Origin: an uncultured Aquimarina sp.
GTDB lineage: Bacteria; Bacteroidota; Bacteroidia; Flavobacteriales; Flavobacteriaceae
Direction of reading: 5' to 3'
Assembly: GCA_947498595.1 (NCBI GenBank)
Contig: CANMKX010000001.1
Span: forward strand, 124,001-188,000
DNA: 64,000 nucleotides
Each line of letters begins with the position of its first letter. Position 1 is the stretch's first letter. This document shows, piece after piece, positions 42,844-63,237 of the stretch. The position numbers and the translations under genes were made by a program. Below the pieces are notes generated by a model that saw only the letters and a program-made list of their open reading frames with translations, did not search any database and was not told the DNA's origin.

Positions 42844-43830
42844 ATGATTAAAAATCTTATAAAAATAATATTTAATATAACAATAGTCATTTTTGTTACG
42901 ATCTTATTATTCGAATTGTCTTATCGCTATTATATCATTGATTTTTATAAAGATTCTTGGATAGCACTAAATAAAAATCAAAATTTTGATAAAAAAAATG
43001 CAGACGTTTTAGTTTTCGGAGATTCCTTTTCAGCAGCTAATAGTAGTTATGTTTCTTTATTACAAAACCACTATCCAAATAAAACTATTTTAAACGCTTC
43101 TGTATCAGGTATAGGTATAAATGAACATCGCATTTTTGCAAAAAATAGAATGCAAAAAAACACTCCTAAAACAATCATATATCAGGTTTATGTAGGAAAT
43201 GACTTGTTGGATGTTTCTCATTTGACAAATTGGAAAAATTTATCTTTTATACGCAATGCATACTGGACTATATCTGATTACCTAGTATCTGTAGCATATA
43301 TAAACAGAAAACTTTCTTTTTTAAAACAACCCCACAAAGATTCAGATGAACGTATAAAAATAGAAGGTGAATTTGATCACAGAAATTATACTTTAAGGCA
43401 GAAAACTCTTTTTAAAGCAGATCCCAGATATTTAGAAAAAACGGTAACACTCACAGAAGATTTTTTAGAGAAATATGAGCAGTGGAAAGATAAAATGGAG
43501 TTATTTTTGGATGAAATACCTTCAAATAGTTCTGTAAAAATAGTTTTTATACCTCATTGTATACAATTGAATTCATATTACCAATCAAATATGAGAATGA
43601 TAGGAGCAAATATGAATACTTTAGATAATCTAAAAAATGAAGAGTATATATTTTATAAGAAAACTAAAGAAGACTTTAAAAGATATAAAAACGTTACGGT
43701 TTTAAATCCATTACCATTTTTAAAACAAAAAGATACCATAACGAAAAGACTCTATTATGCAAATGATCCACACTTTAATACCGATGGACATAAAGCACTC
43801 TTTGAATTTTTAAACGATAAAATTTTTTAA
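42844..43830 (+). CDS. Membrane-anchored SGNH-type hydrolase/acyltransferase-like protein
   Basis: 328 residues with one N-terminal helix (about 8-25), the rest presumably periplasmic. SGNH block I is VFGDSFSAANSSY (Asp60, Ser61), block III is VGNDLLDVS, and the catalytic Asp308 and His310 lie in NDPHFNTDGHKAL. This set suits an O-acetyl/acyl esterase or AlgX/AlgJ-like acetyltransferase acting on glycans (inference). It starts the + strand operon: the carbamoyltransferase follows after 3 bases. A possible -7 box TACATTTA is at 42801-42808. Confidence 0.8.
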   Translation: MIKNLIKIIFNITIVIFVTILLFELSYRYYIIDFYKDSWIALNKNQNFDKKNADVLVFGDSFSAANSSYVSLLQNHYPNKTILNASVSGIGINEHRIFAKNRMQKNTPKTIIYQVYVGNDLLDVSHLTNWKNLSFIRNAYWTISDYLVSVAYINRKLSFLKQPHKDSDERIKIEGEFDHRNYTLRQKTLFKADPRYLEKTVTLTEDFLEKYEQWKDKMELFLDEIPSNSSVKIVFIPHCIQLNSYYQSNMRMIGANMNTLDNLKNEEYIFYKKTKEDFKRYKNVTVLNPLPFLKQKDTITKRLYYANDPHFNTDGHKALFEFLNDKIF

Positions 43831-43833
43831 ATT

Positions 43834-45582
43834 ATGTATGTGCTAGGAATCTCAGCTTTTTATCATGACTCAGCTGCATGTTTATTAAAAAATGGTAAGA
43901 TTGTGGCTGCTGCACAAGAAGAACGCTTTACAAGAGTAAAACACGATTTATCTTTTCCGATACAAGCAATTACATTTTGTTTAGCCGAAGAAGAAATAGA
44001 AATAGTCAATGTTGGCTTAATCGTTTTTTATGAAAAACCGTTTTTAAAGTTCGAACGAATAATTACGACATTTCAACATCAAACACCCTATACATTTAAT
44101 GTTTTTAGAAAAACAATTTCTTCATGGATTAAACATAAGTTATGGATTCCTAATCAGATAAAAAAAGAATTATCATACGAAGGCAAAATCATTTTTTCAG
44201 AACATCATGAGTCACATGCAGCAGGAGCTTTTTTTACCTCTCCTTTTAAGAAAAGTACGATATTAACTATAGATGGAGTAGGAGAACATGCCTGTACTAC
44301 TATAGGGATAGGAGATAAGAATACATTAAAAATTATAAAAGAGCAGCATTATCCACATTCTATAGGGTTATTATATTCTGCATTTACAATGTACTGTGGT
44401 TTTAAAGTGAATTCGGGAGAGTATAAACTTATGGGATTAGCACCCTATGGAAACCCAATCTATAAAGATGTTATATTAAAACATATCGTATCATATACTG
44501 AGGAAGGAGTATTAAAACTTAATCTAAAATATTTTTCTTTTGAAAAAGGAATTTATATGATTAATAAAAGTTTTGGTGAAGTTTTAGGAAAAAAAGCAAG
44601 AGTTCCTGAAAGCGAAATGAATCAATTTTATTGCGACATAGCAAGTTCCATACAAGCAATAACAGAAGATATAATTATCAAGTTAGCTATTTATGCAAAG
44701 AAAATAACTGGCTTAGATACATTATGCTTATCAGGAGGAGTCGCTCTGAATTGTAAAGCCAATGGAGAATTATTAAAGCAAAATATATACAAAGAGGTAT
44801 GGGTACAACCGGCCTCAGGTGATGCAGGAGGAGCTGTAGGAGCTGCTTATGTAGGATGGTATCATTATTTAAAAAATGAAAGAGTATATTTAAAAGACGC
44901 TTTAGTGGATCAAATATATTTAGGAGTTAGTTATACAGATGTTGCGATAGAAAAAATACTAAGAGAATACAATATCAATTACACTCGGTTAGATGACGAA
45001 AGATTAAGCGATGTAGTTGCAAATGCTCTTGAAGAAAAACAAATAGTAGGATGGTTTCAAGGTAAAATGGAGTTTGGCCCTAGGGCTTTAGGACATAGGA
45101 GTATATTAGCAAGTCCATTATTTGAAGATATGAAACAACATGTGAATCTTAGTATTAAAAAAAGAGAAGGTTTTAGACCTTTTGCTCCAATAATTTTAGA
45201 AGAAAGAGTTAAAGAATGGTTTTTAGTAGACAGAATATCTAAATATATGCTGTTTACGTTTGAAAGTGAATTGAAGACGAAAATTCCGTCGTGTATTCAT
45301 GAAGATCGTACAGCTAGAGTACAAACCTTGGATAAAGAAGATAATGTAAGATTGCATAAGGTTATAACAAAATTTGAAAAAAAGACAGCTTGCCCTGTTC
45401 TAATTAATACGTCGTTTAATGTAAGAGGAGAACCGATAGTAGCTTCACCAGTTGATGCATTGCAATGCTTTTATCAAACAGATATGGATGTATTAGTATT
45501 AGAAAATTACATTATAAAAAAAGAAGAAAAAGTACTACCACATAAAGATTTAATTCAAAATAAAAATCATGAATTGGATTAA
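43834..45582 (+). CDS. Carbamoyltransferase, NodU/CmcH/TobZ family
   Basis: 582 residues. The N-terminal Kae1-like ATPase-fold domain begins VLGISAFYHDSAACLL and has HHESHAAGAFF, whose histidines bind metal, and LSGGVALNCKANGEL. The C-terminal YrdC-like domain includes FQGKMEFGPRALGHRSILA and NTSFNVRGEPIVASP. The family transfers a carbamoyl group from carbamoyl phosphate, through carbamoyl-adenylate, to a hydroxyl of a sugar or natural product (NodU on Nod factor, TobZ on tobramycin). Full length with no missing motif. Its 3' end overlaps the SxtJ-like gene by 14 bases. Confidence 0.93.
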   Translation: MYVLGISAFYHDSAACLLKNGKIVAAAQEERFTRVKHDLSFPIQAITFCLAEEEIEIVNVGLIVFYEKPFLKFERIITTFQHQTPYTFNVFRKTISSWIKHKLWIPNQIKKELSYEGKIIFSEHHESHAAGAFFTSPFKKSTILTIDGVGEHACTTIGIGDKNTLKIIKEQHYPHSIGLLYSAFTMYCGFKVNSGEYKLMGLAPYGNPIYKDVILKHIVSYTEEGVLKLNLKYFSFEKGIYMINKSFGEVLGKKARVPESEMNQFYCDIASSIQAITEDIIIKLAIYAKKITGLDTLCLSGGVALNCKANGELLKQNIYKEVWVQPASGDAGGAVGAAYVGWYHYLKNERVYLKDALVDQIYLGVSYTDVAIEKILREYNINYTRLDDERLSDVVANALEEKQIVGWFQGKMEFGPRALGHRSILASPLFEDMKQHVNLSIKKREGFRPFAPIILEERVKEWFLVDRISKYMLFTFESELKTKIPSCIHEDRTARVQTLDKEDNVRLHKVITKFEKKTACPVLINTSFNVRGEPIVASPVDALQCFYQTDMDVLVLENYIIKKEEKVLPHKDLIQNKNHELD

Positions 45583-45976
45583 AGAGACATTTAATAAGAT
45601 ACTGCAAAATAGTATTAAAGCGATAAAACAGAAACAATTTGGATATTTAGTTTCAGGGATTTTATTGTGCTTTTTAGGACTAAGTATTTATAATAACGGA
45701 TTTGTTTGGGATATCAAACAGATAGTACTAAGTACGATTATTTTATTCAATTTAGGGATAACGATGATATGCCCTAAAATATTTTTCCCGATATTGTTTA
45801 TATGGTTTGTTATAGGAGAATTATTAGGACAAATAAGCTCTTTTATAATTTTAGCAATACTTTATTATTTGGTTTTCTCTCCTATTACCATTATAATGAG
45901 AGTGTTTAATAAGAAAACAATTTATAAAGCAGAGTGGATAGATAAAAAGGAAATTATAGATTATGAAACCCCTTAA
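45569..45976 (+). CDS. SxtJ-like membrane protein
   Basis: 135 residues with about three membrane helices (about 25-42, 47-65, 70-100) and a charged C-terminus (NKKTIYKAEWIDKKEIIDYETP). The pattern fits the SxtJ family, small membrane proteins repeatedly encoded next to NodU-type carbamoyltransferases, first named in saxitoxin clusters (family knowledge). It is presumed to assist or anchor the carbamoyltransferase, but no activity is proven. Confidence 0.75.
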   Translation: MNWIKETFNKILQNSIKAIKQKQFGYLVSGILLCFLGLSIYNNGFVWDIKQIVLSTIILFNLGITMICPKIFFPILFIWFVIGELLGQISSFIILAILYYLVFSPITIIMRVFNKKTIYKAEWIDKKEIIDYETP

Positions 45977-45993
45977 ATATTAAATAGTATAAT

Positions 45994-46152
45994 ATGAATA
46001 AATCTCAAATATTTATAGCTTTTATAAAGTTTTTGATGAAACGAAAAAAATATTGGTTGATACCTATAATTATTGTTTTACTTCTTTTAGGAACTATCGT
46101 TGTATTTACAGAAAACTCAGTAATTTCTCCTTTTGTATATTCTCTTTTTTAA
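45994..46152 (+). CDS. Small DUF5989-like membrane protein
   Basis: 52 residues, ATG 45994, TAA 46150-46152: MNKSQIFIAFIKFLMKRKKYW, then one membrane helix (LIPIIIVLLLLGTIVVF) and a short tail SVISPFVYSLF. The RKKYWLIPIII ... PFVYSLF pattern is what I recall for DUF5989, the tiny partner of SxtJ-like proteins. It starts 17 bases after that gene, completing a carbamoyltransferase-SxtJ-DUF5989 module. It is too short for usual ORF cut-offs. Its stop codon shares bases with the stop of the convergent methyltransferase gene. Confidence 0.8.
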   Translation: MNKSQIFIAFIKFLMKRKKYWLIPIIIVLLLLGTIVVFTENSVISPFVYSLF

Positions 46153-46808
46153 TTGATTGAAAAAATAAAATTCTTTTCTTTTGCAACCACTTTTTCAAAA
46201 ATACAATCTAACGTTAAACCACGCTTGGCTGCAATTTTTTTGATATGTATAATATCACAATCTTGAGATAAGATCATGAACACGTTATTTTGATGAATAT
46301 GATTTGGTAATTGGTGAAATAATTTTTGAAAGTATTCAAAGTTGGTTCCGCAAAACCAAGCTTGTTCTTTATCATTTTGAGGATCGCGAGGATAATAAGG
46401 AGGGTTTATAATAATATAGTCAAATCGTTTTTGATGAAATTTTTCAAAAAGATCAGAATATACAGTATTTATGGATACATTATTGTTTTTACTAGCTTCT
46501 TTAAGAGCTTTTAATGCTATAGTATTTATATCAGAAGCAGTTACTATTGCACCTTTAGAAGCAGCCAAAAGAGAAATAATCCCAGAACCACAACCAAGCT
46601 CTAAAAAAGAGGTTTTTTTTAAGTTAAGAGGCTCTAAATATTCTAATAAGATTTTTGTACTTATAGTAAATTTAGGTGAAAATACTTCAGGATGTATTAA
46701 CACTTTTAGATGCTTATAATGATAGGGTCTAGGTTTTGAATGATATAAATCATAACCTAATTTTAAAAATGGATGAATGAGCTTTTTTATGAAAGAGCGT
46801 ATGATCAT
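46149..46808 (-). CDS. SAM-dependent methyltransferase with NPPY motif
   Basis: 219 residues. SAM motif I is FLELGCGSGIISLL (68-81), acidic loop ASDINTIALKAL, and NPPYYP at 135-140 marks the HemK/RsmC-type group, which methylates planar nitrogens (adenine, guanine, glutamine) or related acceptors. A basic N-terminal region (about 1-35) precedes the fold. It is the last gene of the ten-gene - strand operon, 3 bases after the radical SAM gene. A modification target within the cluster is likely but unproven; a housekeeping nucleic-acid role is possible. Confidence 0.83.
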   Translation of the reverse strand: MIIRSFIKKLIHPFLKLGYDLYHSKPRPYHYKHLKVLIHPEVFSPKFTISTKILLEYLEPLNLKKTSFLELGCGSGIISLLAASKGAIVTASDINTIALKALKEASKNNNVSINTVYSDLFEKFHQKRFDYIIINPPYYPRDPQNDKEQAWFCGTNFEYFQKLFHQLPNHIHQNNVFMILSQDCDIIHIKKIAAKRGLTLDCIFEKVVAKEKNFIFSIN

Positions 46809-46811
46809 ATG

Positions 46812-48335
46812 TTATTCAGAATAAAAACCCTCTATTTCAGGTTGACGATACTTCCATATTTTATGTAAGGCTTTAATTTCATAGGGAAATTGATAAAAAC
46901 CATATTTAAAACGATAACCAGAAACCAATTTTAGAAGTTTCTTTTTATAGCCTTTAATTCTAAAATCTGATGCAGTAGGATAATAACCATTAAGTACTGT
47001 TTCAAAGTTTTTGATTGTATCAATCATTTTAGGAGTTAACCAAGGCGTTAAAGGATTTTTACGCAAATCAAAATTTTCCCAGCTAGGAGCAATCCATTCT
47101 TCTAATGTTTGTGGAAAAGAAAAGCCAACGTCGATAATTTGTTGATATAATTCAGATCCTTCTGTAGGTACCGGACTGTAGAGGTAAATTATGATTTCAG
47201 CATTAGGATTAATTTTTTTAATTTTTTTTATAAAATTAATATCCCAAAGAATTTGTTCATACACTTTAGCTGCTGTTTTTCCAGGGAGGCCTAAGACAAA
47301 AGAGAGTTCAGGAATAATGCCAACATTTTTCATACGTAATACAAATTCTTCGATCATTTTCCCAGTTTGTGTACCACCTTTATTCATTTGTTTCAACACT
47401 TCATCATTTCCAGTTTCGGCACCCAAAAAAATCATAGTACATCCTGCCTGTTGCATTAAACGTAATTCTTCATCACTATATTTATTAATAGTGTCTATAC
47501 GTCCTTCTCCCCACCATTTGATATTATCATTTTTAATGAGGTTAGCAAACTCTAAAACACGTTTTTTAGAAGTAAAGAAGTTATTATCATGAAATTCGAT
47601 AGCATCTATTCCATACGAGTTTTTAAAAAAAACAACATCTTTATAGATAGAAGCAGCAGACCTACCTTTCCATCGAGCATTATAAATAGGAACAACTGCA
47701 CAAAACGAACACGTGAAAGGGCATCCCATACTAGAATGATATGCCAATGTTTTTTTACCCATAAAAGTCTTTGCTAAATAATTATCTAATGGATAAAAAG
47801 AATTTAAGTGCTCATAAGGTAATCGAGGTAAAGTATCTTGATCTAATAAAGCTTCTTTTGTAGTTTGTACGATAGTTCCTTTTTCATTTTTAAAAATAAG
47901 ATTACGTATCAGTATTAATTGGTCGTATTGCTGTTTTTCTAAAGCATTTATTAATTTAGGAAATGTTTGATCTCCAGGACCATTTACAATGTAATCTACA
48001 TAACCAGAATCCAAAGAAACTTTATACTGATTAGAAGCAAAGTATCCACCCCAAATGGTGATAGTATGAGGAAACTTTTCTTTTATTTGTTTTGTAAATG
48101 GAATGGCTTGTTTTAGTTGAGGACCAGGCATTACAGTAGAACAAAAGTATTTATATTCACCGGTTTCAAAATATGATGAAATAGTCTGTAAAGGATCATC
48201 TTCGAGATTACCATCTACAAAGACATAATCATGAAGACCGTGTATTGCGGCACCTACCTGTAAAATAGAATTAGGAATTCTATGTTTAGCAGTGGCACTA
48301 CGAGGATTGAAAATGAGAATTTTATTTGTATTCAT
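46812..48335 (-). CDS. B12-binding-type radical SAM protein A
   Basis: 507 residues. An N-terminal cobalamin-binding-like Rossmann domain (about 1-140; TITIWGGYFASNQ, VDYIVNGPGDQTFPKL) without the DxHxxG histidine motif is followed by the radical SAM core with Cys205, Cys209 and Cys212 (GCPFTCSFC). CTMIFLGAETGNDEVLKQMNKG and IPELSFVLGLPGKTA are BchE-like segments. Such enzymes perform C-methylation, cyclisation or other radical chemistry (family knowledge). Less similar to the pair at 58718 and 60878 than those are to each other. It lies 2 bases downstream of the SPASM protein. Confidence 0.87.
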   Translation of the reverse strand: MNTNKILIFNPRSATAKHRIPNSILQVGAAIHGLHDYVFVDGNLEDDPLQTISSYFETGEYKYFCSTVMPGPQLKQAIPFTKQIKEKFPHTITIWGGYFASNQYKVSLDSGYVDYIVNGPGDQTFPKLINALEKQQYDQLILIRNLIFKNEKGTIVQTTKEALLDQDTLPRLPYEHLNSFYPLDNYLAKTFMGKKTLAYHSSMGCPFTCSFCAVVPIYNARWKGRSAASIYKDVVFFKNSYGIDAIEFHDNNFFTSKKRVLEFANLIKNDNIKWWGEGRIDTINKYSDEELRLMQQAGCTMIFLGAETGNDEVLKQMNKGGTQTGKMIEEFVLRMKNVGIIPELSFVLGLPGKTAAKVYEQILWDINFIKKIKKINPNAEIIIYLYSPVPTEGSELYQQIIDVGFSFPQTLEEWIAPSWENFDLRKNPLTPWLTPKMIDTIKNFETVLNGYYPTASDFRIKGYKKKLLKLVSGYRFKYGFYQFPYEIKALHKIWKYRQPEIEGFYSE

Positions 48336-48337
48336 AA

Positions 48338-49420
48338 TTAAAAAGCACTACAACATCTACTACAAGCAGGTAATAGACCACCGTTTGACATTAAATCAGA
48401 TCTAAATTTTTTTAGAATATCAGCATTCCATATTTGTTTTAAAGATTGCTGGTGAATATTTCCTAAAGTAAGATTATAACATCTACCATGAGCAGGTATG
48501 ACACTACCATCAGATTTTATCATGATATTGGTAAAAACATCATTACACATTCTACCTAGAACTTGTTCAGGTTGTTTGTAAAACTGAAGTAATTTCTTTT
48601 TAGAAGGTACTTCAGGAGAAAAATGAATAGGAAATGGATAGTTATTGTTTTTGATATCTTGAATTTCATCCCATAACGCATCAACATTCATATTATCTAT
48701 ATTAATTTCATCAACATTTGATGCAGTTGCAGGATATGTATGCAACCAAGATTTATTATGCATATCAGCAATATGTTGAGGAGTAAAATTGGGATGCATA
48801 AAACCAATTTGTCCCAAAGGAAAATCTTTAAAGAAATCTAAAAACGTTTTTAGATAGCCAATATTCCATTCTGTTATAACACAAAATATAGAAATAGAAG
48901 CCTTGGGATTAATGCTTAGTAACTCATTAATTCCTTCTACTGCTTTTTGAAAAGATTTTTTATGACCACGAATTTCGTTATGAATATCTTGAGGACCATC
49001 AAGTGAAATAAATAAATCACTTACGTTATTTTGAGCAAGTATTTTTGCTTTTTGTTTTAATGTAAGTGCATTTGTAGTGATAGCAGTATTAATGTTTTTT
49101 TGATGAGCATATGCTAATGATTTTTCTAGATGAGGGTAGACTAATGGCTCGGTAAATGCATAACCTAATTTTGTATTAGGATAATAAGTAGCCATTTGAT
49201 CAATAATTCTTTTAATCAAATCAAGAGGCATATTGATAGGATGAGTCCCAACTAAATTCTGAGCAAAATTTGATTCTAAATTTTTAGTACCAACATCGCA
49301 CATTTTACAATGTAAATTACAAACATTGTTAACTCCTAATATGATCCATTCTGGAGAAAAAACATATTGTTTAGGAAAGTATCTTTTGTTGATGTTTTTT
49401 AAAGTTGAAGGGACATTCAT
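48338..49420 (-). CDS. Radical SAM/SPASM protein
   Basis: 360 residues. The CxxxCxxC cluster is Cys34, Cys38 and Cys41 in NNVCNLHCKMCDVG. LGYAFTEPLVYPHLEK and DLFISLDGPQDIHNEIRGH are core strands. The C-terminal region holds several further cysteines (GRMCNDVFTNIMIKSDG, HGRCYNLTLGNI, LPACSRCC) expected to bind auxiliary Fe-S clusters as a SPASM/twitch domain. SPASM enzymes usually modify peptides, but related ones act on sugars or aminoglycosides. No precursor peptide gene is visible nearby, so a glycan or small-molecule substrate is favoured (inference). Confidence 0.87.
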   Translation of the reverse strand: MNVPSTLKNINKRYFPKQYVFSPEWIILGVNNVCNLHCKMCDVGTKNLESNFAQNLVGTHPINMPLDLIKRIIDQMATYYPNTKLGYAFTEPLVYPHLEKSLAYAHQKNINTAITTNALTLKQKAKILAQNNVSDLFISLDGPQDIHNEIRGHKKSFQKAVEGINELLSINPKASISIFCVITEWNIGYLKTFLDFFKDFPLGQIGFMHPNFTPQHIADMHNKSWLHTYPATASNVDEINIDNMNVDALWDEIQDIKNNNYPFPIHFSPEVPSKKKLLQFYKQPEQVLGRMCNDVFTNIMIKSDGSVIPAHGRCYNLTLGNIHQQSLKQIWNADILKKFRSDLMSNGGLLPACSRCCSAF

Positions 49421-49421
49421 A

Positions 49422-50303
49422 TTAAGATACTTTTAATTTTAAAAAAATAGCTTTTATATACCATTTATTAAAAAAGGTATTGTTATTTAGAATAGAATTT
49501 AAGTGTTGAATTCCTTTCTTATTATCATTAATTGATAAATAGTAATTAGCTGTTTTGAAATTTAAAAAATTTGTAGCTAATAAATACCATTTGGTTTCAA
49601 TTTTTTTTGATTTAAATAAGTTTTCAAAAGTTTTTATAGCATCTAGAGAATGAATTATATCAAAGTTCTTAGTTAAATTACTACCATGTCTTCTCATAAG
49701 AGTAAGAGGTTTGTTGAGATAGTAAAATTTATGATTTAAAGCTGCTTTTATAATAAAATCATGCTGACCTTCCATAATACTTTCATCAAAAAAACCGATT
49801 TCTTTTATTAAAGAAGATCTTATAGAAAAGATTGGAAAAGCTAAAATTTCACCTAATATTAATTCTTTGAGAATGTTTTTATAAAAATCTTGCTTTAATG
49901 TATAGTATGGAGAAGAAAGATTCTCAAGAGTTGAAAAATGTTTTAAATTATGGAACATAAACATTGCATCAGGATATTTTTTAAAAATGTTATAAGTATA
50001 ATAAAGTTTATCTTCAAGCCAAATATCATCTGAATCTAAGATAGAAATGATTTCACCTGTAGCATTTTTTAAACCAATATTTCTTAACTTACTTGGTATG
50101 CCTAACTTTTGACTTTTTATATAACGGATTTGCTCTGGAGCTTTATTTATATATGTAGCAACTACTTCATTAGTATTATCAGTTGATCCATCATCGATTA
50201 TAATTAATTCATAATTTTGATATGTTTGATCTAGTACACTTTGAATAGTTTGACCAATTAAATGAGCTCTATTATAGGTAATGGTAATAATACTAATTTT
50301 CAT
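49422..50303 (-). CDS. Glycosyltransferase family 2
   Basis: 293 residues. GT-A fold: ISIITITYNRAHLIGQTIQSVLDQTYQNYELIIIDDGSTDNT at the N-terminus (UDP-sugar site), DSDDIW around 93-98 (DxD metal motif) and EGQHDFIIKAAL as acceptor/catalytic segment. No membrane helix. It probably adds a sugar to a lipid-linked intermediate on the cytoplasmic face. Its start overlaps the ABC transporter gene by 11 bases. Confidence 0.9.
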   Translation of the reverse strand: MKISIITITYNRAHLIGQTIQSVLDQTYQNYELIIIDDGSTDNTNEVVATYINKAPEQIRYIKSQKLGIPSKLRNIGLKNATGEIISILDSDDIWLEDKLYYTYNIFKKYPDAMFMFHNLKHFSTLENLSSPYYTLKQDFYKNILKELILGEILAFPIFSIRSSLIKEIGFFDESIMEGQHDFIIKAALNHKFYYLNKPLTLMRRHGSNLTKNFDIIHSLDAIKTFENLFKSKKIETKWYLLATNFLNFKTANYYLSINDNKKGIQHLNSILNNNTFFNKWYIKAIFLKLKVS

Positions 50304-51981: not shown

Positions 51982-51986
51982 ATTAA

Positions 51987-53997: not shown

Positions 53998-54981
53998 TTA
54001 AAAATAAGAACCTTTTAGTAAACAAACAAGTTGGTATTCTAACGAAATATACGGATTGATAACAAAACGACTTTTTAAAGAATAATCCTTTTCATCCTTT
54101 TGATTCATATAATCAACTAAAAGAATTTTATTAAAGTCATTCTTTTTACAGAAATCGATAAGTTCTTGATTGTAATAGCCAAAAGGAAAAGCAAATTCGT
54201 CTATAGTAATATTACAATATGTTTCGAGTAAAGATTTACTGGACATGATTTCTAAAATAGCTTTATTTATTTTGATTGAAGATAAATTAACGTGCGTATG
54301 TGCATGAGAACCAATAGTAAAAAGTGGATTGTTTGCAATTTCCTTAATACAATGAGGAGGCATTAATTCCCAATAGTCAGTTAAAGTATTCTTGATCTGA
54401 GACCAATCTTTTTCAAAAAGACTAAAAATAGGTTGAATCTCAGTAAATGATAGTTTTTTACAGTAATTTTTTAAGGATATTCCGTTATATACAAATTCTT
54501 TTTTTTTGTTTTTTATATATAAATTACCATGAAATACTATTTCTTTTTTAGTAGTATAAAAGGAAACTAAATCAATAAAATCAGTCCATAGAAATGAATA
54601 TTTATCATGTATAGTTGTGATATAAAACGATGCGGGTACGTTATATTTTTTTAAAACAGGAATTGCATATTTATAATTGTTTAGATAGCCGTCATCAAAT
54701 GTTATAGCGATATTTAAGGTGTCTTTTTTAAATTTTTTTAGATAAAAATCTTCTAAAGAGATTACATTAAAATGTTTGGTTATATAAGTAATTAACGCTT
54801 CGAAATAATCTAGAGAAACAAATCGACTATTGTAACGTGTTTCTCCTTTTAAATCGATTCCGTGAAAAACTAAAACCTGCTCACCATATCGATTTCTTAG
54901 AAGGTGTTTTTTAAACCCTAAACGAAGCAGCGTTGTTTTGATAAGAAGCGTAATTTTATATTTAAGTTTAATTCGAAGCAT
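53998..54981 (-). CDS. Polysaccharide deacetylase (NodB-like, CE4)
   Basis: 327 residues. NodB motif 1 is NIAITFDDGYLNN (Asp-Asp), motif 2 is TIGSHAHTHVNL, the metal-binding H-x3-H, and FAFPFGYYNQEL is motif 3. LVFHGIDLKGETRYNSRFVSL precedes the fold. It should hydrolyse N-acetyl groups from amino sugars with a divalent metal. There is no signal peptide, only a basic N-terminus, so it probably acts in the cytoplasm on a lipid-linked or soluble intermediate rather than on secreted polymer. It lies 3 bases upstream of the GNAT gene. Confidence 0.88.
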   Translation of the reverse strand: MLRIKLKYKITLLIKTTLLRLGFKKHLLRNRYGEQVLVFHGIDLKGETRYNSRFVSLDYFEALITYITKHFNVISLEDFYLKKFKKDTLNIAITFDDGYLNNYKYAIPVLKKYNVPASFYITTIHDKYSFLWTDFIDLVSFYTTKKEIVFHGNLYIKNKKKEFVYNGISLKNYCKKLSFTEIQPIFSLFEKDWSQIKNTLTDYWELMPPHCIKEIANNPLFTIGSHAHTHVNLSSIKINKAILEIMSSKSLLETYCNITIDEFAFPFGYYNQELIDFCKKNDFNKILLVDYMNQKDEKDYSLKSRFVINPYISLEYQLVCLLKGSYF

Positions 54982-54986
54982 ATTTT

Positions 54987-56497: not shown

Positions 56498-57604
56498 TTA
56501 GTTAGTAATAGATTTATAAGTAGGATTAACAAGTAGAGTGCTTACGTGTTCAGCACCTAATTCATTGAAATGCATTCCGTCATAAAAATTAATAAAGCTT
56601 TTATCGATTGTACCCTCAAGATCGAATAACGTTATATTATTATTTTGATGAAGCAATTTTAACTGATGATTATATAGTGACATAGAATTTTTTAAAATGG
56701 TAGGAGAAAAATAAGATTGGCCTTTTTGAGAATAAGACCCATTCGCTCCTAACCATAAAGATTGCTGCTCTGAAACTGTCATGTTATCTTTCCATAAATA
56801 AGGCTGTGTTAAAAAGAGTGTTTTTATTTGTCGTTTTTTACACAGGTGTTGTAATTGAAGAGCATTTTTTTTAAATAAATCTACAGAATTGATAATAGAA
56901 ATAGGAGTAGTTATTAAATTTGGAGTTGTTAAGCGATATTGTCTAAAGGTATCAATGTTTTGATTACTATAAACTAATGAGCGTTGTTTTTGGGGATAGA
57001 ATAGAGATGTTTTTTTAGATAATAGTTGAGTAGATCTAAATCGAGAAAGAGATAGTTTTTTGGAATTAGGAAAGTAAGCAAAAGTAGTTGAAAGAATATT
57101 ATTCTCGCTTGGTATTATAATATTTGGATAATATTTTAAAGCATGTAACATATCATTAATTCCTATTAAAAAAATAACTAAATCTATTTTAGGAAACTGC
57201 TCTATTTGATATTCTAATTGTGCTATATGATGATAACTATTTAAACCACTTTTACCAAGATTACCTACCCATATTTTTTGACCAGTTTTTGAAGCTAATT
57301 TTTTTTGAAGTAAGAAGGGCCAAGTTTCATCTTCGTTGAGATAAAAACATTCTGTGGTACTTCCTCCTATAGTAAGAATATGATAAGTCGCATCAGCATC
57401 ATAGGAAGAACCTCTATATCCATTACTATTCACGATAAACTGAGTAGTATCACTAATACCTTTAAAACTTGTAGAGTCAACATTAAAGGTATAAATAGTA
57501 TTAGGCCTAAAAAGAGCAAAAGGCATAGAAAATAAAGAAAGCGTGATCTCTAAGATAAATGAAGAAATCAAAGCTATTAATAATATTTGACGAAAAAGCT
57601 TCAT
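56498..57604 (-). CDS. SGNH/GDSL-type hydrolase with N-terminal anchor
   Basis: 368 residues. One N-terminal helix (about 6-28) is followed by an SGNH domain: block I LTIGGSTTECF (Ser82), block II NLGKSGLNSYH, block III FLIGINDML, and block V FYDGMHFNELGAEH (Asp342, His345). Likely an extracytoplasmic carbohydrate O-acylesterase or acyltransferase. It is not close in sequence to the SGNH protein at 42844. It is the first gene of the ten-gene operon, 83 bases before the next gene. Confidence 0.85.
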   Translation of the reverse strand: MKLFRQILLIALISSFILEITLSLFSMPFALFRPNTIYTFNVDSTSFKGISDTTQFIVNSNGYRGSSYDADATYHILTIGGSTTECFYLNEDETWPFLLQKKLASKTGQKIWVGNLGKSGLNSYHHIAQLEYQIEQFPKIDLVIFLIGINDMLHALKYYPNIIIPSENNILSTTFAYFPNSKKLSLSRFRSTQLLSKKTSLFYPQKQRSLVYSNQNIDTFRQYRLTTPNLITTPISIINSVDLFKKNALQLQHLCKKRQIKTLFLTQPYLWKDNMTVSEQQSLWLGANGSYSQKGQSYFSPTILKNSMSLYNHQLKLLHQNNNITLFDLEGTIDKSFINFYDGMHFNELGAEHVSTLLVNPTYKSITN

Positions 57605-57956: not shown

Positions 57957-58721
57957 TCAATTGTCTCTTGTATAGCATAACCACATAAAAGGGCTATCTT
58001 TTTTACTCAATAATTTATTGATAATACTTTTTGTAGGTTTATATAAAATTTTAAAATCTTTTATATTTTCAAAAGAATGATGAAAATAGTGAGAAGCCAT
58101 TTCAGGAAATCCTAGTTGCGTATAATAATCAAGTGTACGTCGTTTGGCTGATACAATTTGTCCTTTATTGTAAAATGGGCTATCAATAATATGAATTTCA
58201 CCATGAGGTTTTAAAAAAGATTTAAGAGTAGTAATTAATAAATCAAGATCAGAAAAATATTGAATACAGCCATTAAGAGTAATACAATCAAATTGTTTTT
58301 TAAAAGTATTAATTTTAAAAATATCTCCATAAGCAAATATGAGATTTTGCTGACTGAATATTTCGGTAGCTTGGTAAAGTTCATCAACATTGACATCGAG
58401 TCCTATAATTTGATGTTGAGGAGAAATAGTAGCTAATAAATTTGAAAACCAACCATTGCCACAACCAATATCTAGGATGTTTAATGGAGTTTTTTTACGA
58501 TTTAAATATTCAGTAAATCGTGTGGTAGATTTTTGTCGCAATTCCCATTCAGATACATGAGGAGAAAAAGTATCTAAGTAAGGTAATGATTGTATTTGTT
58601 TAGCAGAAAGAATGCGTTGTTCTTTTGTCCGCACAGCTATATATAAATCTGAAAAGTTAGACTGAATCTCGGTTAGAAAATGAACCTTGTTTTTGGTATA
58701 TAAACTATTTAATGGTATCAA
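57957..58721 (-). CDS. Class I SAM methyltransferase, couplet 1
   Basis: 254 residues. SAM motif I is NILDIGCGNGWFSNLL (81-96), followed by IIGLDVNVDELYQA and FDCITLNGCIQYFSDL (post-motif segments of the small-molecule methyltransferase type). An N-terminal helical region of about 75 residues precedes the fold. It overlaps the upstream radical SAM gene by 4 bases, forming a translationally coupled pair. Substrate unknown; last gene of the five-gene operon. Confidence 0.87.
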   Translation of the reverse strand: MIPLNSLYTKNKVHFLTEIQSNFSDLYIAVRTKEQRILSAKQIQSLPYLDTFSPHVSEWELRQKSTTRFTEYLNRKKTPLNILDIGCGNGWFSNLLATISPQHQIIGLDVNVDELYQATEIFSQQNLIFAYGDIFKINTFKKQFDCITLNGCIQYFSDLDLLITTLKSFLKPHGEIHIIDSPFYNKGQIVSAKRRTLDYYTQLGFPEMASHYFHHSFENIKDFKILYKPTKSIINKLLSKKDSPFMWLCYTRDN

Positions 58722-60106
58722 TACTTATAGAATTTCATTCCAGTATTTGCTAGAATAGATTTAGTTTTTAGTTTAAAAGAAAGCCAAGAATTCTTTCGTT
58801 GACCTTTGATGATTTCTTTATGGAAATTTACTTCATTTACAATGCGTTTTACGGCATAAGTATAGAATTTACGATTATAAGTTCGTTTAAAATCGATATC
58901 ACGATCAGTAGAAGTTTCCCAATTAGGCTCTATAGTAATTTGATCTTGTATTTCATTATACAAAGAAGTACCTTTTATAGGATAAGCTACTGTAATAGTG
59001 AAATGAGTTGGGTTTGCTGCTTTGAGATAAGTGATTGTATTTTTGATATCTTTTTCGTCTTCTCCAGGATAACCAACCATAATAAAAGTCCCCGTTTCTA
59101 TACCCAAAGCATTAGTTTTTTGAATAGCTTCTTTTACGGTATCAACATTAACTCGTCTATCCATAGCGTCAATGATTTTTTGAGAGCCACTTTCTGCACC
59201 AATCCAAATTCTAAAACATCCAATTTCTTTGAGAAGTTGTAAAACTTCATCATTTAATCGTTCAGCTCTCGTAATACATTCAAAAGGAATTATAGCATTT
59301 TGACTAAGAACTTCTTTATGAAAATTTTTAAGCCATTTATGACTCACTGTGAAAACATCATCAACAAACCATATACTATCAGGTTGGTAAGTTTGTTTAA
59401 GCATTAATAATTCTGAAGCAACAAGATGAGCAGGTCTCCTTCTATAACTTTGTCCATAAACGGCAGTACTACACCATTTACATGTATAAGGACAACCGCG
59501 TTGTGTGCTAACAGTCATAGAACTTTTTCCGTGATATGTTTTCCAAGTATTTAAATATTTATCAATAGGAACAGCAGCTCTATTAGGTAAAGGAAGTGAT
59601 GCTAAATCTTTAATTTTTGATCTAGGAGGAGTTTTTATTACCTTTTTACCTTCAATAAAAGAGATTCCGTTGATGAGATGGAAAGAAGTCTGTTGTATAA
59701 TAGCAAGATATAATTCATAAATAGTCTGTTCTCCTTCACCTATTACTAAAAAATCAGCACCAGAATTTAAGTAATTAGAGGTGTTATAAGTTACGTCAGG
59801 ACCTCCCAAAACAATTTTAGGAAAACCATAACGAGTTTCTGATTTTAAAACCTTCATTAATTTGATGACATTTATCTTAGTCATCAAATTAGTATATATA
59901 GCAACGACCTTAGGTTGTTTTTCTTGAATATAAATGAGTTGTTCTTCAAAGCTATAAAAAGTAGAATCATATAAAGAGTTATCGATCTGATGTTGTTTTA
60001 AATAAGCAGAAATATATAATAGACCCAATGGAACATAAGGCCTCATAATAGATTGTTCCTTTTGATCTTCGTAAAGATAATAGGCATGGGTTAAAAGTAT
60101 ACTCAT
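58718..60106 (-). CDS. B12-binding-type radical SAM protein B
   Basis: 462 residues. The N-terminal cobalamin-like domain (VPLGLLYISAYLKQ, KIVLGGPDVTYNTSNYLNSGADFLVIGEGEQTI) lacks the DxHxxG histidine. The radical SAM cluster is Cys205, Cys209 and Cys212 in RGCPYTCKWC. CFRIWIGAESGSQKIIDAMDRR and GTFIMVGYPGEDEKD are BchE-like. It is a close paralogue of the protein at 60878 (RGCPYxCxWCxxxxYG, IWFVDDVF/FWMCDDIF, GAESGSQxIxDAMD). It overlaps methyltransferases on both sides by 4 bases each. Possible chemistry is C-methylation, ring closure or desaturation. Confidence 0.88.
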   Translation of the reverse strand: MSILLTHAYYLYEDQKEQSIMRPYVPLGLLYISAYLKQHQIDNSLYDSTFYSFEEQLIYIQEKQPKVVAIYTNLMTKINVIKLMKVLKSETRYGFPKIVLGGPDVTYNTSNYLNSGADFLVIGEGEQTIYELYLAIIQQTSFHLINGISFIEGKKVIKTPPRSKIKDLASLPLPNRAAVPIDKYLNTWKTYHGKSSMTVSTQRGCPYTCKWCSTAVYGQSYRRRPAHLVASELLMLKQTYQPDSIWFVDDVFTVSHKWLKNFHKEVLSQNAIIPFECITRAERLNDEVLQLLKEIGCFRIWIGAESGSQKIIDAMDRRVNVDTVKEAIQKTNALGIETGTFIMVGYPGEDEKDIKNTITYLKAANPTHFTITVAYPIKGTSLYNEIQDQITIEPNWETSTDRDIDFKRTYNRKFYTYAVKRIVNEVNFHKEIIKGQRKNSWLSFKLKTKSILANTGMKFYKY

Positions 60107-60885
60107 TTCTTTTGTAATTCGATTAAAAAGTGATCAGCATATTTTGCTAAACTTGGATTTTTTAAGTATTGATCTAAGTTTTTGAATATAGTTAAAAGCG
60201 GTTTTGATGCAATAAAAGAAGATTCTAAATAGGAGGGAGGAATAAATAAACCTATAGGCCTGATTTGATTTACGACATAATATTTTTTAGCAAAAGAACA
60301 AATATCCACAGGATTATAATACCATGTAGGAACTTGAATGCCGTCAACATTTGCTAATACAGCTTGAGTCGTATTTCTACGAGTTGCTTTTTGAAAATCT
60401 CTTTTAATAGAAAAATAAAAACGTTCCCACAAGCAATACTTAGGCATAATGATAAAAATTAATTTTCCGTTAGGAGTTAATAATTCAGTAGTTGTATCAA
60501 TAAAAGCTTTAAATTGAGATGAATTAAGACAATTTAATCCTCCAAAATTTGAAAATATTAAATCAAATTTAGTAGAGAAAGAATGTATTGAAAGTTGATT
60601 GATATCTAAAGTTTTAAACAATAATTCTTTAGGATGCTTTTTAGTATTGGCTATAGCAATCATTTTTTCTGAAATATCTGTAGCTATAATTTTGTGCCCT
60701 TTTTGAGCGAATTTTATAGCATCTTCACCAGTCCCACAGTTAAGCTCAAGTATAGAAAATTGTTGTGATGGGGTAAATATTGAATGTAAATAAGAATAAA
60801 CTAATTCACGTTGAGCTTTACCAATTCTTGAGTTCGTAAAAACATCGTCATAGTGTGTCGCTGCGGTATCAAAATCATTAAACAT
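60103..60885 (-). CDS. Class I SAM methyltransferase, couplet 2
   Basis: 260 residues. Motif I is ILELNCGTGEDAIKFA (45-60), an unusual Asn instead of Gly in the usual GCGTG context, then IIATDISEKMIAIA and FDLIFSNFGGLNCL. The N-terminus (FDTAATHYDDVFTNS) is of UbiE/small-molecule type. The C-terminal part (VPTWYYNPVDICSFAKKYYVV) is typical of cap-region methyltransferases. It overlaps radical SAM protein B by 4 bases and C by 8. Only remotely similar to the couplet 1 methyltransferase, so the couplets did not arise by a recent simple duplication of both genes. Confidence 0.87.
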   Translation of the reverse strand: MFNDFDTAATHYDDVFTNSRIGKAQRELVYSYLHSIFTPSQQFSILELNCGTGEDAIKFAQKGHKIIATDISEKMIAIANTKKHPKELLFKTLDINQLSIHSFSTKFDLIFSNFGGLNCLNSSQFKAFIDTTTELLTPNGKLIFIIMPKYCLWERFYFSIKRDFQKATRRNTTQAVLANVDGIQVPTWYYNPVDICSFAKKYYVVNQIRPIGLFIPPSYLESSFIASKPLLTIFKNLDQYLKNPSLAKYADHFLIELQKK

Positions 60886-62347
60886 TTGTATGCTCCATAT
60901 TTTTAAGTTGGATATTATCTATAAATGCAGAAGGAATATAATACCCTAATAATAATATAGATCTTAATTCACTTTTATCAATTGATGAAGGATGTTTAAA
61001 TAGTTTTTTTAAATTTTGTAAAGCTTGACTTTTACGATACTCTTTATGAACATAGCGATGTAACTTTTTATAAAAACTAGAATTAAAACTGCCTTTAAAA
61101 AGCATTGCAAGGTCATCAGAATCTGTCCAGTTAGCTTTCAGTTTTAAGTCGTCTTTTACTTTTTCATAAAATTTTGTGCCAGGTAGCGGATAAGAAACAG
61201 ATATACCAATATTATCAGGAACTAATTCCTTGATCATTTGTATTGTTTTTACGATATCTTCTTTCGTCTCATTTAAATAACCAAACTGTATAAAAAAGGC
61301 AACATTTATATTTTTCTCTTTTAATAATTTTGTAGCATCATAAATTTGAGCAACAGAAGTTCCTTTATCCATAGCATCAAGAATGGTTTGAGAACCACTT
61401 TCGGCACCGACCCAAACTTCTTCTAAACCACTTTCTGCAAGTGCATCAATAGTATCTTCCTTTAATAATAAATCAACACGACTTTGGATATAGTACGAAA
61501 TATCTAAAGATCTTTTTTTGAGCTCTACATTAAACTCTTGAACCCAATTAGGTTTTAAACCAAAAATATCATCGCACATCCAGAAACGATGAACATTAAA
61601 AGTAGTTGCTAAATATTGGATATGATCAGCAATATATGCAGGAGAATGTGAGTTGTATCGATTCCCGTAAATAGGCTTGGCACACCAATTACATTTATAT
61701 GGACAACCTCTAGTTGTTGCGAGATTGAGTGTGAAAGGATGTTTACCTTGTTTCCAAATAGATTTGTAAGCATCAATGTCAACTAAGTCCCAAGCTGGTA
61801 AAGGCAATTGATCGAGGTCATGTAAAACTGGCCGCTTAGGAGTTTTAACAATAGCATTGTTTTTTTTGTATACGATTCCAGAAATGAGAGAAATATCATC
61901 AGAGACAGATAGGGTATCTACTAAAGTTTTGAGTGTGATTTCTCCTTCTCCTTGAATAATTATATCTGCACCAGCATCTAAGTATTTTTCATAATGATCA
62001 GTAGCATCAGAACTAGATACTATAATATGACAATTTTGTTTTTTCGCTATTTTAATCATTTCAAAAGCAGCTTCTCTCATGGCTGTTAAGCACATTTTTG
62101 TGAGATAATTAAAACCATCATCATAAAGAACAAAAAAACGAGGTGTCTGTTGTTCTAATAGCGGTTGGATCAAAAAAGGGTCTTCTATAAGATTGGTATC
62201 AAAAACATCAACTGTATAACCAGCCTCTCTCAAAAATGAAGTAGCATACAGGGTTCCTAGAGGAGGATATGGAGTTTTATTCTTCCATTGTTTTGGGTCA
62301 AAAGAATAATAGTATGAATGTGAAAAAAGAACATCTACAGCAGTCAT
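60878..62347 (-). CDS. B12-binding-type radical SAM protein C
   Basis: 489 residues. N-terminal domain with YPPLGTLYATSFLREAGY and GADIIIQGEGEITLK, again without a cobalamin-ligating DxHxxG. Cluster cysteines are Cys215, Cys219 and Cys222 in RGCPYKCNWC. LEEVWVGAESGSQTILDAMDKG and NVAFFIQFGYLNETKED are core strands. A C-terminal helical tail (about 410-489) resembles that of protein B. It lies 8 bases downstream of the nucleotidyltransferase gene and couples to the methyltransferase by an 8-base overlap. Confidence 0.88.
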   Translation of the reverse strand: MTAVDVLFSHSYYYSFDPKQWKNKTPYPPLGTLYATSFLREAGYTVDVFDTNLIEDPFLIQPLLEQQTPRFFVLYDDGFNYLTKMCLTAMREAAFEMIKIAKKQNCHIIVSSSDATDHYEKYLDAGADIIIQGEGEITLKTLVDTLSVSDDISLISGIVYKKNNAIVKTPKRPVLHDLDQLPLPAWDLVDIDAYKSIWKQGKHPFTLNLATTRGCPYKCNWCAKPIYGNRYNSHSPAYIADHIQYLATTFNVHRFWMCDDIFGLKPNWVQEFNVELKKRSLDISYYIQSRVDLLLKEDTIDALAESGLEEVWVGAESGSQTILDAMDKGTSVAQIYDATKLLKEKNINVAFFIQFGYLNETKEDIVKTIQMIKELVPDNIGISVSYPLPGTKFYEKVKDDLKLKANWTDSDDLAMLFKGSFNSSFYKKLHRYVHKEYRKSQALQNLKKLFKHPSSIDKSELRSILLLGYYIPSAFIDNIQLKNMEHTNV

Positions 62348-62355
62348 ATAATAAT

Positions 62356-63237
62356 TTAATTTATTTTCATTAAAACTTCATCATGCTTTTCATTAAGCAT
62401 ATCAATTACTTTTTTTTGATAATTTTGTGGATGATGTTTCGATATATTTTTGGTAGACTTCATAGCTACTTTAAAATTAGTAGAATCTAAGTGACTAAAT
62501 TTCCATTTCCATTTTTTGAAAGTCAAATTTAAAAATAATTGATCAAGATAGTTTCCAAATCTATTTTTTAAAAGTATTTCGATGCCTTTTATAATTAGAG
62601 GTTTTTTTATAAGATTAGTATTGCTGATATCAGCAATTTTTTTGTTGGTGTAAAAATCATTAATCCATTTATTTTGATGATAAAATTCCTGAAACATTTT
62701 TTTACCATACATAGGAATTAAAGTGACAACCTCTGTCGCAGTAAATTGATTTTTCTCTTGAATTTCAAGAGTAGTTTCACTTACAAAATAATTAACACAG
62801 AAATATTTTTTAGAATTAAATAAAAAAAGTTTTTTATATAAGATTAAAAAAGTTCTAGCAAGCCATAAACGATTTGATGAGGTAATTAAAAAAAAATCAA
62901 TATCACCATCATCATCATAATAACCTTTGGATAATGATCCAGAAATACCTACACCAGTTATGTAAGGGAATTTAGAAATAAACTTAGAAACCTTTTCTGC
63001 TTTATAAAAGATATCTTTAGCCATTTGATTTCCTTTTAATCTTCGATTGATATAAGAAGATTCGTTTTCACATAAATAAAAGTCATCAATTTTAAAGATA
63101 ATACCATCATTAAGATATTCATCAAGAAATAGAATAGTTTCTTCTATAGATAAAGCATTAGAATATTCAAAAATCTCATCGATTCGAAGAGGATATTTAA
63201 ATATTGAAAAATACAAAAGTGTTTTTAATGGATTCAA
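62356..63237 (-). CDS. Nucleotidyltransferase-fold protein
   Basis: 293 residues. The polymerase-beta-type motif is GVGISGSLSKGYYDDDGDIDFFLIT (split here for length: Gly100-Ser101, Asp112, Asp114), so a nucleotidyl- or phospho-transfer role is possible. A winged-helix-like region occupies residues 1-60 (YFSIFKYPLRIDEIFEYS). The start is TTG (63237-63235): no in-frame ATG precedes it before the TAG at 63264-63262, and the promoter at 63263-63293 places the transcript start about 20 bases upstream. First gene of the five-gene operon. It could adenylylate or activate an acceptor (inference). Confidence 0.78.
   Translation of the reverse strand: MNPLKTLLYFSIFKYPLRIDEIFEYSNALSIEETILFLDEYLNDGIIFKIDDFYLCENESSYINRRLKGNQMAKDIFYKAEKVSKFISKFPYITGVGISGSLSKGYYDDDGDIDFFLITSSNRLWLARTFLILYKKLFLFNSKKYFCVNYFVSETTLEIQEKNQFTATEVVTLIPMYGKKMFQEFYHQNKWINDFYTNKKIADISNTNLIKKPLIIKGIEILLKNRFGNYLDQLFLNLTFKKWKWKFSHLDSTNFKVAMKSTKNISKHHPQNYQKKVIDMLNEKHDEVLMKIN

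Follow-up and report, generated by a model that had tools for sequence, protein, structure and literature searches.

What does a flavobacterium make with a locus that joins a carbamoyltransferase module to four radical SAM proteins, methyltransferases, glycosyltransferases and a flippase, and is such a locus one pathway or an assembly of parts? We addressed this question for a cluster in the window, a stretch of 64,000 nucleotides from an uncultured Aquimarina sp., which probably represents one version of a modular surface-glycan locus of flavobacteria, with a mechanism that we infer from its genes and their relatives. Surface-glycan loci are mostly identified by their Wzx/Wzy or ABC exporters and by known genes for sugar nucleotides, whereas here the constant part appears to be a unit of radical SAM and nucleotidyltransferase genes that is conserved from genus to genus, while the glycosyltransferases, the flippase and the decorations around it vary. 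If this is true, the locus would stand for a kind of glycan locus left unnamed by family models, and two enzyme families would gain a hypothesis open to assay.

Gene content and layout

The cluster comprises 18 open reading frames of at least 90 aa, three on the + strand (42844-45976) and 15 on the - strand (63237-46149). A 52-aa frame at 45994-46152 encodes a DUF5989 protein, and with it the total equals the nineteen genes that the sequence-only reading had counted at 42844..63237, all of them present as open frames:

42844..43830, + strand, SGNH1, membrane-anchored SGNH/AlgX-like protein, first gene of the carbamoyl cassette (PF19040 21.8, ALGX 20.5, both below cut-off)
43834..45582, + strand, NodU/TobZ-type O-carbamoyltransferase (Carbam_trans_N 284.4, Carbam_trans_C 227.3 bits)
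45569..45976, + strand, SxtJ family membrane protein (PF19588 24.8, cut-off 24.4)
45994..46152, + strand, DUF5989 small membrane protein, last gene of the cassette (PF19451 70.7 bits, cut-off 27)
46149..46808, - strand, MT1, small-domain methyltransferase, partner of B12a (PF05175 69.9 bits)
46812..48335, - strand, B12a, radical SAM protein (PF04055 55.1; weak B12-binding match, 22.7, cut-off 32.1)
48338..49420, - strand, radical SAM/SPASM protein (PF04055 64.1, PF13186 40.8 bits)
49422..50303, - strand, GT2 glycosyltransferase (PF00535 112.5 bits)
50293..51981, - strand, ABC half-transporter, PglK-like flippase (PF00005 105.1 bits)
51987..53060, - strand, GT4 glycosyltransferase (PF00534 81 bits)
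53068..53994, - strand, GNAT acyltransferase, partner of the deacetylase (PF13527 29.6 bits)
53998..54981, - strand, PDA, NodB-fold polysaccharide deacetylase (PF01522 67 bits)
54987..56414, - strand, GTC, GT-C type membrane glycosyltransferase (PMT_2 24.7, just under the cut-off of 26.1)
56498..57604, - strand, SGNH2, SGNH/GDSL protein (PF13472 41.7 bits)
57957..58721, - strand, MT2, class I methyltransferase (PF13847 62.5 bits)
58718..60106, - strand, B12b, B12-binding radical SAM protein, core (PF04055 79.9, PF02310 44.1 bits)
60103..60885, - strand, MT3, class I methyltransferase, core (PF13649 55 bits)
60878..62347, - strand, B12c, radical SAM protein, core (PF04055 70.9; B12-binding 26.0, cut-off 32.1)
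62356..63237, - strand, NT, winged helix and nucleotidyltransferase domain, core (Pfam 19.4, cut-off 21)

Most of the families named from the sequence alone were recovered above the Pfam cut-offs, namely the four Radical_SAM domains (cut-off 29.5 for B12a, B12b and B12c), SPASM, the three methyltransferases, GT2, GT4, ABC_tran, GNAT and Polysacc_deac_1, as well as Carbam_trans N and C and SxtJ of the carbamoyl module. Other assignments were softened: SGNH2 (Lipase_GDSL_2) passes and every match of SGNH1, the second supposed SGNH protein, falls below cut-off; the GT-C membrane transferase and the nucleotidyltransferase are weaker than had been suggested; and, among the three radical SAM proteins called B12-type, B12b exceeds the B12-binding cut-off and B12a and B12c do not. 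Among the NCBIfam matches listed for the 19 proteins, none reaches its cut-off. The absence of PKS, NRPS and precursor peptide genes was borne out, since the Pfam matches of the cluster proteins hold no such domains, and a PKS, NRPS or peptide pathway was rejected on the same ground. The division into three operons had been inferred from the sequence; the - strand run has a single larger gap (57605-57956, with no frame of at least 90 aa), and a simple scan of the - strand between 44500 and 64000 found no terminator-like sites.

The core and its exchangeable surroundings

Gene neighbourhoods in other genomes indicate that NT-B12c-MT3-B12b is the constant part of a modular locus, NT being a predicted ANT-like nucleotidyltransferase. 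NT and B12c occur in exactly the same genomes, both among 110 relatives (20 genomes) and in 395 genomes of the phylum (27 genomes, the two genes lying within 5 kb of each other, and NT being split by a contig end in G393), where B12c was searched with a cut at E 1e-90, to which any absence of the pair is relative; two draws of 395 genomes were taken as one set because their number and handles agree. Matches to B12c fetched 100 loci, and removing loci whose NT protein was identical left 92 distinct ones. In 91 of these NT adjoins B12c, 88 contain MT3 and 82 contain B12b, and the order of the core is fixed across genera. Frames of the fetched DNA were called with a crude script (longest, largely non-overlapping), which hid B12c in one locus (L186), and the family counts cover frames of 100 aa and more. 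In plasmids, B12c gave zero matches at E 1e-40. The genome searches scored part of the candidates of the first look, so that absence means not found at that level, and counts in one gene-order comparison with other genomes refer to an identity of at least 35%; 418 related stretches pass just E 1e-3, where paralogues are possible, and 80 were kept.

Around this core, the gene set of the window appears to be one assortment rather than a fixed set, in which blocks of glycosyltransferases and modifying enzymes can be exchanged. B12a, the SPASM protein, the NodU-type gene and the PDA-GNAT pair are gained and lost between loci. Among the 18 Aquimarina genomes that carry the core, B12a is found in 13, the carbamoyltransferase lies within the locus in 10, and all four radical SAM genes with the carbamoyltransferase occur in four (G000, G024, G033 and G042). 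The operons thus co-occur in related genomes as modules and not as one unit, and the earlier view of one pathway defined by this exact set was not supported. GTC is present in 27 and GT87 in 30 of the 92 distinct loci, never together, and MT2 accompanies GTC in 24 of its 27 loci. All 19 distinct loci that bear MT1 also have B12a. GNAT directly follows PDA in eight of 14 distinct PDA loci; five more stretches stop at PDA, and L077 has only a reverse frame of 130 aa after it. PDA passed the broader Polysacc_deac_1 model and lies below the cut-off of the NodB chitooligosaccharide deacetylase model TIGR04243 (24.7 against 240). Some relatives add APS kinase and sulfotransferases to the core locus.

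Such a strongly modular composition, together with a genome position of the window locus that differs from that in most Aquimarina carriers, could suggest that unrelated surface-decoration genes came together by accident and share no product. We consider this very improbable, given the fixed core order, the mutual exclusion of the GTC and GT87 blocks and of the flippases (see below), and the facing carbamoyl cassette, which in each of the 10 Aquimarina loci with one lies past the operon's far end; the cluster is more than chance, since corresponding genes recur in matching order in other genomes. A 950-aa gene, which we take to be carB-like from reading its sequence rather than from a family search, flanks the locus in 11 of the 18 Aquimarina carriers. 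A functional tie to this gene was rejected, as it flanks loci with and without the carbamoyltransferase and lies on contig C17 in this genome, so that we read it as a matter of position. An empty site between carB-like and YceI-like genes in this genome was likewise dropped, because the nearest matches are on different contigs (C17 and C2).

Regarding the chemistry of the core, AprD4, a sugar deoxygenation enzyme, is the best solved relative of B12b and (as 6fd2) the sole one found for B12a, and that of B12c is an unnamed radical SAM protein (9ccb). We rejected naming these proteins methylases by family, since AprD4 tops the solved relatives of B12a and B12b. Among the NCBIfam matches listed for the radical SAM proteins, none passes for any of the four (the lists give the best 25 of 64, 41 and 37 matches for three of them, and none of the 25 listed for the SPASM protein reaches its cut-off), and for the named families (BchE, HpnJ, PhpK, ladderane and others) the best listed score is 162.8 against 481.35 (BchE, for B12c). 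HpnJ and the ladderane-lipid family are nevertheless, with BchE and PhpK, among the nearest models of B12b and B12c, and NT-B12c can occur with no glycosyltransferase genes nearby, both of which would suit a membrane glycolipid or natural product in which the radical SAM proteins modify a lipid part and the sugars are decoration. We find this reading improbable: the scores of those models are all far under cut-off, the solved relatives of B12a and B12b point to a sugar enzyme and that of B12c is unnamed, and the Pfam matches include no acyl carrier, PKS or lipid synthase domain.

For NT alone, the closest known system is that of the ANT(4')/LinB small-molecule nucleotidyltransferases, and a solved-structure search with its profile gave nothing better than E 0.069. 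In some distant genomes NT-B12c stands without recognisable glycan genes: Pfam assigned none of the neighbours tested in L193 (six) and L195 (four) to glycan assembly, BLAST found no further cluster relative in L194 and L196, and L197 holds just a B12b-like gene at its far end (labels in distant loci are best BLAST hits, some below 30% identity). The core is therefore not strictly tied to glycans. A tentative proposal, which we regard as possible but doubtful, is that NT and B12c form an obligate two-gene unit of Bacteroidota with a new reaction, in which the ANT-like NT would nucleotidylate a sugar or sugar-like substrate and the dedicated radical SAM protein would remodel it; this activated block, with no described counterpart, would be the constant residue of a class of flavobacterial surface glycans that are otherwise interchangeable, and would serve another product where the glycan cassette is absent.

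The flippase and the proposed oligosaccharide

Each locus, as far as read, holds at most one flippase gene, either a PglK-like ABC transporter or a Wzx-like protein. The former is found in 32 of the 92 distinct loci and the latter in 39, none has both and 21 have neither (Fisher p 5.9e-11 for exclusivity); for 72 of them the sequence covered extends about 10 kb or less to each side, so that a more distant flippase would be missed. Counted without a shuffled control, the flippase type switches at least 21 times on the B12c tree, a quick one in which 30 of its 89 inner branches are drawn open. The Wzx-like label refers to a family (c13) of which two of 26 members match Polysacc_synt, with a weak profile match (probability 8.9, E 0.0037) and nothing better than E 0.069 in the solved-structure search.

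The ABC protein of the window recalls the Campylobacter Pgl pathway, in which a lipid-linked oligosaccharide is assembled in the cytoplasm and flipped by one ABC half-transporter. It aligns with PglK (5c73) in one stretch, over residues 9-544 of 562; larger multidrug-type ABC exporters score higher in the list of solved structures, in two stretches. PglK (NF050066) is also its best NCBIfam model, although at 185.5 against 1000 bits the cut-off of the equivalog is not reached. Unlike Pgl, the cluster has no oligosaccharyltransferase match, and we know of no Pgl counterpart of the radical SAM core or of the carbamoyl cassette.

The product of the operon is most likely a lipid-linked oligosaccharide, methylated, carbamoylated and N-acyl-exchanged, which a flippase moves across the inner membrane; product, anchor and core chemistry are deduced from gene content. 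In the cytoplasm, the core would make or activate an unusual residue common to these glycans, which NT, as a nucleotidyltransferase of small-molecule type, would nucleotidylate, B12c and B12b would alter at a carbon (by methylation, deoxygenation or epimerisation) and MT3 would methylate. GT2 and GT4 would lengthen the oligosaccharide on a lipid carrier, and B12a-MT1, MT2 and the SPASM protein may introduce further modifications. The PglK-like transporter would flip the lipid-linked oligosaccharide. On one side of the membrane or the other, PDA could strip an N-acetyl group and GNAT put on another acyl group. GTC would use a lipid-phosphate donor to attach a sugar, and the carbamoyltransferase, together with its membrane partners, would add carbamoyl from carbamoyl phosphate.

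A flippase of PglK type with no polymerase gene, a GT-C membrane protein (below cut-off) and the heavily methylated protein glycans known from flavobacteria would also fit an oligosaccharide for the general O-glycosylation of secreted proteins. This explanation is unlikely, because no oligosaccharyltransferase family appears among the Pfam and listed NCBIfam matches of the cluster proteins, and the locus is patchy in the genus (18 Aquimarina genomes carry it and many of those listed do not), which a general system would not be.

The locus also shares features with Wzx/Wzy O-antigen and capsule loci, which have a variable middle beside a constant part and one flippase per locus, as seen here with the PglK-like ABC protein and in relatives with the Wzx-like one. 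Among relatives, G068 has the core next to Wzz and Wzy_C, and L188 has it next to an initiating sugar transferase (Bac_transf) and a Polysacc_synt flippase. In contrast, the Pfam matches of the window cluster include no Wzy, Wzz or initiating sugar-phosphate transferase, and a typical Wzy O-antigen locus was rejected, since the only Wzy_C and only Bac_transf matches of this genome are on another contig (C20). The sugar product proposed from sequence was accordingly retained in part: a flipped product bearing carbamoyl, methyl and exchanged N-acyl groups agrees with the gene content, with the exchange of flippases between loci and with the loci G068 and L188, and the term polymer lacked support for this cluster, no Wzy or Wzz domain having been found in its proteins. 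The cluster showed no polymerase gene, which makes a long polymer less likely than a defined oligosaccharide or glycolipid.

The statement that no pathway with such a set was known as described is in line with our searches of an open-licence library, in which no description of this gene set came up. The part seen of a study on Pseudomonas LPS core clusters describes a deacetylase, a GNAT and a carbamoyltransferase (WapO) close together, resembling the window in joining these three activities within one sugar-chain cluster; that deacetylase is PIG-L, in contrast to the NodB-fold one here, and radical SAM genes, present in the window cluster, are not named in that part (PMC8005017).

The carbamoyl cassette

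Both Carbam_trans domains exceed their cut-offs, which places the carbamoyltransferase in the NodU/TobZ O-carbamoyltransferase superfamily, and its solved relatives are O-carbamoyltransferases (NovN, as 9s2t; GdmN; and TobZ); it lies below the cut-off of the NodU nodulation equivalog NF041651 (160.2 against 1000 bits). SxtJ and DUF5989, both above cut-off, accompany it, and SGNH1 adjoins it in nine of the 10 Aquimarina loci that have one (the exception being G013). The 110 relatives contain 13 DUF5989 matches over the cut-off. Of these, 12 (each at least 69 bits) have a NodU match no more than about 1 kb away; the thirteenth is weak (G006, 28.5 bits) and not near one. These neighbourhoods indicate that SGNH1-carbamoyltransferase-SxtJ-DUF5989 is a portable, presumably carbamoylating cassette with kin outside Aquimarina, and SxtJ and DUF5989 would, if this view of the locus is right, be tied to membrane-side glycan carbamoylation. 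Such kin are found on the plasmid pT173d of Ensifer canadensis, which differs from the window in its gene order, its alphaproteobacterial host, a carbamoyltransferase identity of 47.5% and a stretch with no annotated radical SAM gene, and resembles it in a row of GDSL-type, hypothetical, DUF5989 and carbamoyltransferase genes beside a GT4 glycosyltransferase gene, with an oligosaccharide flippase gene further along.

Gene content of the locus

The locus (positions 42844-63237 of the window, on contig C1 of a 4.9 Mb genome) consists of two facing groups of genes:

42844-63237, both strands: whole locus
Plus strand: carbamoyl cassette, namely SGNH1, carbamoyltransferase, SxtJ and a DUF5989 protein (52 aa)
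63237 to 46149, minus strand, facing the cassette: run of fifteen genes, in the order NT (putatively ANT-like nucleotidyltransferase), B12c (radical SAM), MT3 (class I methyltransferase), B12b (radical SAM), MT2 (methyltransferase), SGNH2, GTC (GT-C type membrane glycosyltransferase), PDA (NodB-fold deacetylase), GNAT, GT4, ABC (PglK-like half-transporter), GT2, SPASM (radical SAM/SPASM), B12a (radical SAM) and MT1 (methyltransferase)

This gene list, proposed in the sequence-only reading, was borne out by ORF listing and Pfam searches. The "B12-type" label given there to three radical SAM proteins holds for B12b, which exceeds the Pfam cut-off for B12-binding, whereas B12a and B12c fall below it; the GT-C label is weaker than was first suggested, the protein being only just under its Pfam cut-off. 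Among the matches listed (best 25) in a search of the 19 locus proteins against NCBIfam, none reached its cut-off.

The NT-B12c core

B12c was found in 20 of 110 related genomes, 18 of these being Aquimarina (own genome included), and these 20, with no others, also yielded NT. Across the phylum, B12c was detected in 27 of 395 sampled genomes (E 1e-90 or better), and the NT profile retrieved the same 27 genomes and no other (E 1e-15 or better); the two genes lie less than 5 kb apart throughout this set, with NT split by a contig end in one genome (G393). Scanning GTDB genomes turned up 418 related stretches, the best 80 of which all belong to Flavobacteriaceae or Flavobacteriales (Kordia, Winogradskyella, Flavobacterium, Dokdonia, Lacinutrix, Aquimarina and others).

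We compared 92 distinct loci (100 fetched by B12c matches, minus those with identical NT; 72 of the 92 read to at most about 10 kb on each side). NT adjoins B12c in 91 of them; 88 contain MT3 and 82 contain B12b, and 73 keep the strict order NT-B12c-MT3-B12b. By best BLAST match, MT3-like genes occur in 21 of 26 distant loci, B12a-like genes in 13 and B12b-like genes in 5; therefore, NT and B12c form the deepest unit. In five loci of distant phylum members (L193, L194, L195, L196 and L197) the pair stands without neighbours recognisable by BLAST as glycan genes, although L197 has a B12b-like gene at the far end of its stretch. Pfam searches on some of the neighbours in L193 and L195 showed these not to be glycan genes, which suggests that the NT-B12c pair makes a precursor that serves more than one purpose.

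Exchangeable modules around the core

Carbamoyltransferases with at least 59% identity occur in 10 of the 110 relatives, all of them carriers of the core, and each lies past the operon's far end and faces it; distant carbamoyltransferases (50% identity or less) are located in core-less genomes or elsewhere in carriers. DUF5989 exceeded the cut-off 13 times in the 110 genomes. Twelve of these matches are strong and lie no more than about 1 kb from a carbamoyltransferase match, two of the twelve being in core-less genomes (G034 and G055); the thirteenth, in G006, is weak (28.5 bits) and lies away from any such match. On an Ensifer canadensis plasmid, a row of GDSL, hypothetical, DUF5989 and carbamoyltransferase genes adjoins a GT4, with an oligosaccharide flippase further on. 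From these relatives and this plasmid, the cassette is therefore portable and found with glycan genes. The solved relatives of the carbamoyltransferase are O-carbamoyltransferases, and SxtJ and the DUF5989 protein may anchor the enzyme to the membrane.

In a solved-structure search, the ABC protein aligned with PglK in one stretch (residues 9-544 of 562), and multidrug-type exporters outscored PglK via two stretches; its best NCBIfam model is PglK, below cut-off. Other loci have, instead of it, a membrane protein about 390 aa long. Of the protein families concerned, c59 has a Polysacc_synt match over the cut-off in the one member tested, and the larger c13 has such a match in 2 of 26 members, its profile matching Wzx proteins weakly, though over nearly the whole length. 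Among the 92 distinct loci, 32 have the ABC type, 39 the Wzx-like type, 21 neither and none both (Fisher p 5.9e-11); the 18 Aquimarina loci divide into 13 ABC and 5 Wzx-like. The flippase type changes at least 21 times on the B12c tree. Such swapping of one flippase kind for another next to the same core is expected for a flipped, lipid-linked sugar chain.

The loci also vary in the genes that separate the core from the far end. The GTC (27 loci) and GT87 (30 loci) blocks are mutually exclusive, occurring together in 0 of 92 loci (p 3.5e-6). MT2 accompanies GTC in 24 of its 27 loci, and GT87 is in all 30 cases accompanied by a lipoprotein-like protein. Family c10 (e.g. L084:13614-14729; lipoprotein-like, about 380 aa, 37 loci before duplicate removal) co-occurs with GT87 in 30 of the 33 distinct loci having it; the members tested have no Pfam match. 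GNAT directly follows PDA in 8 of 14 loci; the stretch ends at PDA in five others, and only a 130-aa reverse frame follows it in L077.

APS kinase and sulfotransferases are present in some Aquimarina loci (Pfam-checked for both in G013 and for the sulfotransferase in G025), the APS kinase lying beside sulfotransferase genes in L055:18528-19965 and L040:18997-20261, so the glycans of these loci may be sulfated. All 6 distinct loci with APS kinase also have the carbamoyltransferase.

Proposed working and genomic setting

We consider it rather likely that the locus works by way of a flipped lipid-linked oligosaccharide, which would contain a residue made by the core. The gene content, the linkage of the core, the exclusivity and the modularity are shown by the comparison, whereas the glycan nature of the product, the identity of the core-made residue, the sequence of steps and the final anchor are putative. 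Two main observations count against this proposal: no initiating transferase and no polymerase were found in the cluster, and NT-B12c also stands among non-glycan genes (L193 and L195). The higher scores of multidrug-type exporters than of PglK in the solved-structure search lower its likelihood slightly. The single Bac_transf and the single Wzy_C of the genome are both on another contig (C20, 46529-56825), about 9 kb apart, and probably belong to an ordinary Wzy-type locus distinct from this one.

In G068, which belongs to a different lineage of Flavobacteriales, the genes for Wzz and Wzy_C (L046:13670-15976) lie immediately upstream of an MT2-like gene and the core NT-B12c-MT3-B12b, and the arrangement in G085 looks similar by reading.

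Neither this gene set nor the NT-B12c unit was found described in our searches of a library of openly licensed papers; surface-glycan loci are already known, and the radical core is, as far as we found, apparently undescribed.

The B12c proteins of the window and of G047 branch apart from those of the other Aquimarina in a quick tree, in which fifteen of the latter make up a supported clade of their own. A carB-like gene on one side and a YceI-like gene on the other (named by reading) flank 11 of the 18 Aquimarina loci within the stretch read; in the window's genome, their nearest matches are on contigs C17 and C2. The window locus has most likely been exchanged or relocated.

Elsewhere in the window, we noticed a second glycan-looking region (15367-35257), with three GT2 paralogues that read as DPM-like, a Polysacc_synt_3 flippase, PMT, Glyco_hydro_2_C and beta-helix proteins; two large proteins (16366-20684) matched no Pfam family at E 1e-4. 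A polysaccharide lyase (PF14099, 35348-37186) carries a Por_Secre_tail and is thus a probable substrate of the type IX secretion system, and 37293-38153 encodes a penicillin-acylase-like protein that matches AAT and NAAA-beta weakly.
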